This document shows positions 601 through 3,214 of a stretch of DNA of 33,731 nucleotides, one piece after another; position 1 is the first letter of the stretch; every line of letters starts with the position of its first letter. Source of the stretch: Planctomycetia bacterium (GTDB lineage Bacteria; Planctomycetota; PLA2; JAEUHO01); assembly GCA_016795345.1 (NCBI GenBank), contig JAEUHO010000202.1:1-33731 (forward strand), written 5' to 3'. Below the pieces are notes generated by a model. The model did not search any database and was not told the origin of the DNA. It worked only from the letters and a program-made list of their open reading frames with translations. Made by a program: the position numbers and the translations under genes.

Positions 601-746
601 AATAGCCTTGGCGCCTGCACCGGCCGAGTCGTGCCGCGGCAGGAGTGGGGGCGGCAGGGGGAGGGACCCGTGCCGAACCGCTCCCCATCGCGACTCGCAG
701 GTCGCCCAGGGGACCGTCCTCGACCCGCCCTGTCGGTGGCCCCATG

Positions 747-752
747 TAGGAT
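747..752 (+). promoter_or_regulatory. -10 element of the HNH-RuvB gene
   Basis: TAGGAT fits the TANNNT pattern seen throughout the window. It would place transcription start near 759 and give a leader of about 30 nt carrying the GGAG at 779-782. It overlaps the edge of the direct-repeat box at 755-769. No clear -35 was seen. Confidence 0.45.
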
Positions 753-790: not shown

Positions 791-3214
791 ATGTCCCACG
801 CCCTCGCGGATCCCGCCCCGGACACCGCGGTCCCCGTCCTGGGGGAGGCGCGGCCCCCGTCGGCCGACCCCACCGAGATGCGGCCCGGGCTGACGGCGGA
901 AGAGGTGTGCCGGCGGCTGGCACGGGCGGCCCGGCACGAAGAGACCGGCCGGCGCGTGCTCGCCTTCTACCTGGTCGAGATGGACCAGCGGCGGCTCTAC
1001 CAGGCGACCGGCCACGGCAGCACGGCGCACTACGCCGAGGCTCGGCTGGGGCTCGACCGGCGGCGGGTCGCGGAGCTGGTGCGGGTGGGCGCGAAGCTCC
1101 TCGAGCTGCGCGGGCTCGACCGCGCCTTCTGCGCGGGACGCCTGGGGTGGGCCAAGGTCTTGATCGTCGCCCGGATGGCGACGCCCGAACACGAGGCGGC
1201 CTGGCTCGAGCGCGCGCTCGCGCTCGACGCCCGGGCGCTGGCGCTGCTCGCGGCGCGATCGCGGGAGGGCGGCGCACCGCGGGCGCCGGGCGACGAGAAG
1301 GGCCTGCCCGAGATCCGGTTCCCTGTGAGCGCGTCCGTCGGGTCGCTCGTGTACGCGAAGCTCGAACAGGCGCAGCGTCGCCTCGGGGCCGAGCTCGGCC
1401 GCGAGGTGGACGTCGCGGGGCTGCTCGACACGCTCCTCGACCAGTTCCTCGCGACGCAGGCCGACGGCAGCGTCCCCGGCCGGACGCGCGTGGACGCCTC
1501 GGCCTTCCGCGTGCAGCTGGTCGAGACGGGGGAGCGCGGGGCCCCGCTGCTGGTCTCGACCGAGGACGGGCTGTTCCCGCTCGACGCGGGCGGCCCGGGC
1601 GGCGAAGGCGCGGCGTCCGAGGCGGTGCGCTGCGACGCCGGCGTGCGCAACCATCACGTCGCCGGTTCGCGCGACGCCGCGGGGGACGACCACGACCACC
1701 GCGCGCGCGACGTCAAGACGCCGCCGGGCATGCGTCGGAGCGTCCTGCGGCGCGACGGCCATCGCTGCCGCTCCTGCCGCTCGCGATGGTCGTTGATGGT
1801 GCACCACGTGGAGTTCCGCTCGCACGGCGGGCGCACGCTCCACGAGAACCTGATCACGCTCTGCTCGCGATGCCACGGGCTCGTCCACGCGGGGCTGCTC
1901 GTCATCGAGGGGACCTCGGCCGACGTCGTGCGGTTCGTGGACGCCGCGGGTCGCCCGCTCGCGGGGGCCGAGCAGGTCGGGGCCCTCGAGGCGTCCCGTC
2001 TCGCGACGTGGGGCGCAGAAGCGGTGGGCCTCGCGACGGTGAGCCTCCAGCCGCCGCCGGTCGCGCCGGACGCCCCCGAGGGCGCCGCGACGGTGACGCT
2101 GAGGTCGATGCCCGAAGAGGTGGACGCCTCGTGGTGGAGGCGGCACGCGCACCTCGTGCGCGAGCGCGGCGAGCACGGGACCCTGCGTTTCGAGGCGGGG
2201 ACGCCGATCGAGGCGCCCGCGCCCGACGTCGCGCCGCCCGCGCCCGTGGACACGGCCTTCGCCGGGCTCGTCGGTCAAGGGGAGCGTGTCGCGCGGCTCG
2301 CGCGGGTGGCCGAGGGCGTGCGCGCGCGGGGCAAGCGCTTCCCGCACGTGTTGCTCACGGGGCCCGCGGGCACCGGCAAGAGCACGTTGGCGCGCGGTAT
2401 CGCGGTGGCGACCGGCCGGCCGATCGCCGAGGTGTCGGCGCCGCTCGTCACCGACCGGGCGACCTGGGTGCGCCTGCTGGCGGGGCTCGCCGAGGGGAGC
2501 GTCCTGTTCCTCGACGAGGCGCACGCGCTGCCGCGCGCGCTGCTCGAGGTGCTGCTCGAGGCGATGGCGGAGCACCGGCTCTCGCTCGTGTTGTCGGACG
2601 GCGTGACGGCCCGGCGCATCGCGCTGAAGCTGCCTTCGTTCACGCTGGTGGCCGCGACGACCGACGACGGGGCGATCCCGCCGGCGCTGCGGAGCCGCTT
2701 CGGGCTGCGGGAGACCCTGGTGCACTACGACGCCGACGCGCTGGCCGCCGTCGTGCGGGACGCCGCGGCGCGCGAGGGCGCGGAGGCGACGCCGGAAGGC
2801 GCGCGGAGGCTCGCGGAGGCCGCTCGCGGCACGCCGCGGGAGGCGCTGCGGCTCCTCGAGCGGGCGCTCGACGACGCGGCCGCGGACGGGGCGATGCGGC
2901 TGGACGTCTCGGGCGTCGAGCGGACGCTCTCCGGGCTCGGGTACGACGCGAACGGCCTCGACGCGGGCGAGCAGCGGTACCTGGCGGTGCTGCGCGAGAG
3001 CCCGATGCCGGTCCCGCTGTCGCGCCTGGCGCGGGTGATGGGCACGACGCCTCGGTCGCTCGTCGAGCACGTCGAGCCGTGGCTGTTCCTGCGCGGGTTC
3101 GCGCGCATGACGCCCGGCGGGCGCACGACGGCGCCCCGCGTGCGGCTCATGGCCGCGCGTGGCGGTGCGCCGAACGTGCGGCACCTGGCGCCGCGCGCGT
3201 ACCACGCCACCTGA
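791..3214 (+). CDS. HNH endonuclease fused to RuvB-like Holliday-junction branch-migration ATPase
   Basis: 807 residues from the ATG at 791, chosen for the GGAG at 779-782; the frame stays open to 608 but upstream sequence looks non-coding. Residues about 30-170 are the helical N-terminal region typical of DUF222-type HNH proteins (MDQRRLYQATGHGSTAHYAE). The HNH zinc nuclease is at 314-366: C326-x2-C329, H338-H339, N353, C358-x2-C361-H362 and H366. A Pro/Ala-rich linker leads to a full RuvB module at about 487-800: Walker A GPAGTGKS (524-531), Walker B FLDEAH (573-578), sensor ATTDDG, SRFG, a GTPREALRLL segment like RuvB's GTPRIANRLL, and the C-terminal winged helix with EPWLFLRGF and RMTPGGR, close to RuvB's EPYLIQQGF and RTPRGR. 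RuvB drives branch migration at Holliday junctions, so joining it to a nuclease suggests junction or replication-fork processing. Its promoter carries a putative SOS box. It is unlikely to be the housekeeping ruvB, which is normally beside ruvA/ruvC. Confidence 0.88.
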   Translation: MSHALADPAPDTAVPVLGEARPPSADPTEMRPGLTAEEVCRRLARAARHEETGRRVLAFYLVEMDQRRLYQATGHGSTAHYAEARLGLDRRRVAELVRVGAKLLELRGLDRAFCAGRLGWAKVLIVARMATPEHEAAWLERALALDARALALLAARSREGGAPRAPGDEKGLPEIRFPVSASVGSLVYAKLEQAQRRLGAELGREVDVAGLLDTLLDQFLATQADGSVPGRTRVDASAFRVQLVETGERGAPLLVSTEDGLFPLDAGGPGGEGAASEAVRCDAGVRNHHVAGSRDAAGDDHDHRARDVKTPPGMRRSVLRRDGHRCRSCRSRWSLMVHHVEFRSHGGRTLHENLITLCSRCHGLVHAGLLVIEGTSADVVRFVDAAGRPLAGAEQVGALEASRLATWGAEAVGLATVSLQPPPVAPDAPEGAATVTLRSMPEEVDASWWRRHAHLVRERGEHGTLRFEAGTPIEAPAPDVAPPAPVDTAFAGLVGQGERVARLARVAEGVRARGKRFPHVLLTGPAGTGKSTLARGIAVATGRPIAEVSAPLVTDRATWVRLLAGLAEGSVLFLDEAHALPRALLEVLLEAMAEHRLSLVLSDGVTARRIALKLPSFTLVAATTDDGAIPPALRSRFGLRETLVHYDADALAAVVRDAAAREGAEATPEGARRLAEAARGTPREALRLLERALDDAAADGAMRLDVSGVERTLSGLGYDANGLDAGEQRYLAVLRESPMPVPLSRLARVMGTTPRSLVEHVEPWLFLRGFARMTPGGRTTAPRVRLMAARGGAPNVRHLAPRAYHAT

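Follow-up and report, generated by a model that had tools for sequence, protein, structure and literature searches.

What would a planctomycete do with a RuvB-type motor that is built into the same polypeptide as a nuclease? This question is raised by the gene at positions 791-3214 of the window, that is, of the whole stretch of 33,731 nucleotides that was analysed. A first-pass annotation had described the gene as an HNH endonuclease joined to a complete RuvB motor, and had proposed that its product could act either as a one-protein RuvB plus resolvase-like machine or as a mobile or defence nuclease.

Architecture of the fused protein

The presence of both parts in one polypeptide was borne out. 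Translation of the forward strand gave a single open frame of 807 aa, and Pfam recognised in it an HNH domain (aa 326-367, E=1.9e-8), RuvB_N (aa 490-642, E=2.1e-32), the RuvB lid (aa 646-717, E=7e-9) and RuvB_C (aa 721-780, E=6e-7), all of them exceeding their own gathering score. With GC fractions of 0.80, 0.56 and 0.96 at the three codon positions, the frame has the profile typical of genes in GC-rich DNA. From the N to the C terminus, the protein consists of a helical domain, a less ordered stretch, the HNH domain, a linker with the conserved element WWRRHA and the RuvB-derived module. The features are as follows.

731-752, forward strand: PafBC/RecA-NDp-type promoter, TGTCGGTG-N8-TAGGAT, 38 bp upstream of the start codon
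791-3214, forward strand: fusion gene, HNH nuclease plus RuvB-derived AAA+ motor, 807 aa, no internal stop
887-1258, forward strand: helical N-terminal domain, aa 33-156 (AlphaFold pLDDT about 86-96; Foldseek 6s6h)
1724-1942, forward strand: HNH nuclease domain with zinc-binding cysteines, aa 312-384 (PF01844, E=1.9e-8)
2108-2200, forward strand: WWRRHA-containing linker element, about aa 440-470 (alignment of the fusions; similar to the C terminus of an unfused relative)
2258-3136, forward strand: RuvB-derived AAA+ module with P-loop domain, lid and winged helix, aa 490-782 (Pfam, NCBIfam, PDB chains, Foldseek)
2360-2383, forward strand: Walker A GPAGTGKS, aa 524-531 (lysine kept in 17 of 17 readable fused rows)
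2576-2629, forward strand: presensor-1 beta-hairpin with which RuvB docks to RuvA, retained in the window copy, aa 596-613

The zinc and catalytic positions of the HNH domain (C326, C329, H338, H339, C358, C361, H362 and H366) were unchanged across 19 homologues, in agreement with the first-pass annotation, which had all of them present. Its assignment of the nuclease to the DUF222 type found no support in Pfam: at an E value of 0.5 none of 14 members of the fusion family matched Pfam DUF222 (PF02720), and one distant relative of the family gave a weak match (E=0.002) that is below the cut-off. The solved folds nearest to the HNH domain in Foldseek were Cas5-HNH, EcoKMcrA and TagI. The zinc-braced HNH fold is similar in all of them, whereas the fusion carries no recognised modified-base reader or Cascade partner and has a RuvB-type motor. 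No Pfam family was found for the N-terminal domain, and the search for a solved homologue by sequence gave HNH matches only. The modelled fold of this domain weakly resembles the DNA-binding domain of ParB/Spo0J/Noc (best match 6s6h, TMt 0.65, E=0.055 in Foldseek), and for this reason it is plausible that the N-terminal domain binds DNA.

Kept and lost features of the RuvB-derived motor

The NCBIfam RuvB equivalog matched aa 490-782 at 220 bits, with a cut-off of 282 (another such match gave 189 against 299), so the module is RuvB-derived and yet not a typical RuvB. PDB chains of RuvB matched it at E values down to 5e-45. The full-length AlphaFold model was confident over the motor (pLDDT mostly >90), and its comparison with RuvB structures by Foldseek gave E values down to 3e-28 and TM values of 0.8-0.88 on the target, while clamp loaders trailed at 4e-12. 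A generic clamp-loader AAA, which the first-pass annotation had named as the alternative to RuvB, is therefore the poorer match. In addition, the Walker A lysine, the Walker B DE, the sensor 1 threonine, the arginine finger and the sensor 2 arginine were unchanged in all readable fused rows.

Comparison of the fusion with RuvB (NF000868; PF05496, PF17864, PF05491) thus revealed a likeness in fold, domain order and winged helix as well as in the Walker A and B motifs, sensor 1, arginine finger and sensor 2. However, the fusion differs in the attached nuclease and in its score below the equivalog cut-off, and the family differs in a hairpin that has been deleted in some members and in the loss of the AM-E-D signature and most DNA-contact arginines. 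The presensor-1 hairpin of RuvB binds domain III of RuvA and is thought to relay activation by RuvA (PMC9477746). It was missing in 6 of 18 rows of the fused family, in both f1 and f71, and in none of 37 housekeeping rows. The window copy retains it, and its RuvA-contact positions are occupied by hydrophobic residues. As for the grip on DNA, the arginines contacting the dsDNA backbone were defined in Thermus thermophilus RuvB (PMC10272136). The DEIH-R arginine was lost in 15 of 17 fused rows, and winged-helix position 297, which is K or R in all 37 housekeeping rows, was V, M, I or T in every one of the 16 fused rows readable there; the AM-E-D signature was degenerate in the fused group. In the window copy Arg21, the AM-E-D signature, the DEIH-R arginine and the winged-helix Arg297 and Arg300 are all altered, the residues at DEIH-R and at winged-helix positions 297, 300 and 302 being A, M, G and R, of which the last one alone is retained.

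The first-pass annotation had called the motor complete and had credited it with every RuvB landmark. Both statements held for the ATPase core and its motifs; they did not hold for the docking hairpin across the family or for the DNA-contact residues, in the window copy as well as in its relatives. The winged-helix ending RMTPGGR that it had listed among the landmarks is indeed there, but it is a deviation of the window copy, several relatives carrying MTPRGR or TPRGR. Judged by its residues, the fused motor is a changed RuvB, in which the ATPase engine is kept while the docking and DNA-grip features are drifting. With the DNA-contact arginines lost, the module could be an ATP switch or an oligomeriser only and no longer translocate on DNA.

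Since the window copy has its hairpin, binding of RuvA by this copy is possible, and the module together with the housekeeping RuvA might then be a true Holliday-junction branch-migration motor in which the HNH domain replaces RuvC. This is the resolvase-like machine that had been proposed, and the RuvB fold, the intact ATPase core and the hydrophobic RuvA-contact positions of the hairpin are all in its favour. However, the same genome has ordinary ruvA, ruvB and ruvC elsewhere, one third of the family rows are without the hairpin, and the DNA-contact arginines and the AM-E-D signature are degenerate. Such a machine, which we regard as quite unlikely, is possible for the hairpin-keeping window copy and fails to explain the family as a whole. 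The separate ruvA, ruvB and ruvC also indicate that the fusion is an addition, and they uphold the earlier suggestion that it supplements the housekeeping RuvB.

Distribution, probable origin and genomic setting

The fusion is not a joining confined to a single genome, a case that the first-pass annotation had considered. It was found in at least 12 Planctomycetota genomes belonging to five families, often as 2-3 diverged copies per genome; most of the genomes compared are fragmented MAGs and several copies are cut by contig ends. In the window's own family, full or contig-broken fusions were present in G003 (three copies), G005 and G006 (three copies), and fragments in G008 and G009, whose main halves stop at contig edges and were not counted as losses. 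A short piece with stops (G009:C236) looks like a decayed copy. No fusion was found in G001, which is of the same genus. A search of 392 Planctomycetota genomes with a profile of the nuclease half gave matches in 25, and the fusion was detected in four families besides the window's own: f9 (G108, two copies), f71 (G138, G180 and G204), f19 (G184, G128 and G171) and f37 (G091). Sampling in depth covered Planctomycetota, and no myxobacterial fusion turned up in the limited sampling of that phylum; a scan of all species genomes with a single peptide pattern returned Planctomycetota solely. No published HNH-RuvB fusion was found in the open-access literature.

Related nucleases without RuvB were identified in G072 and at L122. 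These, and a paralogue on contig C343 of the window's own genome, are homologous to the fusion over the N-terminal domain and the HNH domain and lack the RuvB module. Just before its end, the L122 protein has a stretch similar to the WW linker; this suggests an addition of RuvB to the end of a nuclease that was already complete. A maximum-likelihood tree placed 16 fused modules on one side of a 100/100 branch and 33 housekeeping RuvBs on the other, as is consistent with the fused motor having arisen once; long branches of some fused rows make the branching order within the fused group unsure. In close pairs where dS was unsaturated, dN/dS was 0.10-0.26, with similar purifying selection on both halves.

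These data leave a negligible probability to an assembly chimera or a pseudogene-like joining. The source is a 614-contig MAG, and on one relative's contig (G005:C387) RuvB sequence does give way to unrelated repeats, but the same fusion occurs in independently assembled genomes of five families, the motors form a single group in the tree and selection is matched in both halves. The G005 contig (L007) is itself a probable chimera, the RuvB sequence continuing directly into surface-protein repeats, and the RuvB end missing from it was located, with an overlapping peptide, at L038 (G005:C923).

The distribution of the fusion is patchy, the copies inside one genome are strongly diverged, and no genomic site was found to be shared between genera. 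Such patchiness is unlike that of a core repair enzyme. The presence of an HNH domain, and of several copies per genome at unrelated sites with no location common to genera, could also be accounted for by a selfish or homing nuclease that copies itself through damage-repair recombination. However, the strong divergence of copies within one genome and the purifying selection on both halves speak against it, and neither terminal features nor a clean insertion site were identified. The fusion was not found in phages, plasmids or IMG/VR viral contigs either, all of which gave separate HNH or AAA matches only; this rules against a phage, plasmid or viral origin. We consider a homing nuclease very unlikely. 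An empty-site comparison with the same-genus G001 gave no clean insertion boundary: lysS was present there, but the DNA upstream of it was unmatched.

A patchy, multi-copy and fast-evolving family whose HNH domain is nearest to Cas5-HNH, EcoKMcrA and TagI might also be an anti-invader nuclease, i.e., a damage-induced, ATP-dependent and restriction-like enzyme against foreign or modified DNA, and another site of the same promoter in this genome adjoins a DNA methyltransferase-like gene. However, defence models gave no full-length match to the fusion, only partial HNH or P-loop ones, and the neighbours of the fusions, those in G003 and G006 included, were unrelated genes with no partner or defence island seen. 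On this balance we hold the anti-invader role to be unlikely, and for the mobile or defence nuclease of the first-pass annotation no positive evidence was obtained. With regard to other neighbours, a divergent ORF at 3-566 on the reverse strand of the window (MRTPDDLG...NYVDLAGNCFL) has no Pfam family and was discarded as a conserved neighbour, since no match to it was found next to the other fusions. Directly upstream of one G006 copy there is a gene for a second HNH protein (HNH_2), which looks unrelated (L040:3638-4705, reverse strand).

Promoter, possible damage regulon and proposed role

At 731-752, TGTCGGTG-N8-TAGGAT exactly matches the motif reported for PafBC in mycobacteria, TGTCGG-10N-TA-3N-T (PMC8151990), which supports the DNA-damage-type promoter noted by the first-pass annotation. 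Searching this genome for TGTCNNTG-N8-TANNNT gave 7 sites, and the reversed control gave 0. The seven promoters are near-identical, of the form TGTCGGTG-N8-TAGnnT, and comprise the window site and those on contigs C51, C312, C343, C455, C488 and C496 of the same genome (G000; L108-L113). The C343 site precedes the unfused HNH nuclease mentioned above, which is homologous to the nuclease half of the fusion (hhalign probability 98.3, E=1.9e-14) and so has the same promoter, and the C51 site precedes a frame-broken relative of that nuclease. The remaining sites include one before a transposase-like ORF and one before an ORF that adjoins a DNA methyltransferase-like gene. At the C455 site (L111), the promoter is followed by a 262-aa ORF without Pfam family, with a DNA cytosine-methyltransferase-like ORF on the opposite strand; both are possibly a restriction-modification pair. 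In the relative G006, a promoter of the same type (TGTCGGTGGCCCAGGCTAGCAT) was located 114 bp upstream of ssb (L196, G006:C112, 1501-1522).

The core TGTC-N12-TA-N3-T was found within 120 bp upstream of 8 of 18 family genes, f19 and f71 members included, one of the 18 (G005b) being cut by a contig end ahead of its RuvB part. This core is a loosened form of the published motif, chosen once the sequences had been inspected, and for this reason the spacing and strand controls matter: over the 18 genes, the mean for dinucleotide shuffles was 0.03, no other spacing gave more than 1 and the opposite strand gave none. The core was absent from the examined upstream stretch of the other 10 genes, and recA of this genome has no close match to a PafBC-type promoter. 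The genome does encode a PafB-like WYL regulator (6sj9, E=5.9e-37). In Mycobacterium tuberculosis, mitomycin C induces five putative HNH endonucleases through a route reported as RecA-dependent (PMC8151990). The likeness to the fusion lies in the promoter motif of the mycobacterial PafBC regulon and in the response of HNH genes to mitomycin C; the mycobacterial nucleases have no RuvB fusion. Induction of the fusion gene by DNA damage is well motivated on these grounds, which also suggest a small PafBC-type regulon in this planctomycete, outside Actinobacteria.

Right after the promoter there is a direct repeat, GAAC-N7-GAAC (755-769), which resembles the alphaproteobacterial LexA box and has a partial form after the C488 promoter (L112). 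Among the 18 genes, its complement is upstream of G005a (L007, upstream of 2743) and before no other. The reading as a LexA-type box was rejected, because with 55 sites genome-wide the repeat is too frequent to inform.

Taken as a whole, we give an even chance to the fusion being an endonuclease that is inducible by DNA damage, processes DNA at the expense of ATP and uses a repurposed RuvB motor. The intact HNH and ATPase residues, the conservation over five families, the single motor group and the purifying selection argue for this reading. So do the promoter match and its enrichment, the PafB-like regulator, the same promoter before an unfused nuclease and ssb, and the loss of the RuvA-docking hairpin in fused rows and in no housekeeping one. 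Against it stand the family genes without the promoter core, recA without a close match, the patchy distribution, the loss of DNA-contact arginines and the hairpin retained in the window copy. As a DNA-processing endonuclease of this kind, the protein would bind DNA through its N-terminal helical domain and nick or cut it with the HNH domain, while the RuvB-derived module, probably a hexamer around duplex DNA, would move or clamp the DNA and couple cutting to ATP use. Branched or stalled-fork DNA arising after damage would be the likely substrates. The ring may be translocating, clamping or merely organising the nuclease; the loss of DNA-contact arginines leaves the last one possible.

Such an enzyme probably had a single origin in Planctomycetota, where an older HNH nuclease that stood alone would have gained a RuvB copy at its end; the fusion would then have been retained as one polypeptide while its motor drifted from RuvA dependence. 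RuvB normally depends on RuvA for loading and activation. In the fusion, the attached nuclease and the probable DNA-binding domain may replace RuvA as the targeting part. Only tentatively do we extend this to a new class of damage-induced motor-nuclease with a RuvB motor freed from RuvA, in which the fused N-terminal DNA-binding and HNH parts would take over loading and targeting, and a hexamer of the single polypeptide would both translocate and cut.

The HNH-RuvB fusion looks like an apparently undescribed tool for processing damaged DNA. RuvB modules that repeatedly lose the RuvA dock, while keeping the ATPase core and an attached nuclease, are a natural test of what the RuvB ring does alone. 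The PafBC pathway was worked out in Actinobacteria, and the promoters described here point to a damage regulon of this type in Planctomycetota. They would also link the DNA damage response with HNH nucleases whose role is unknown.
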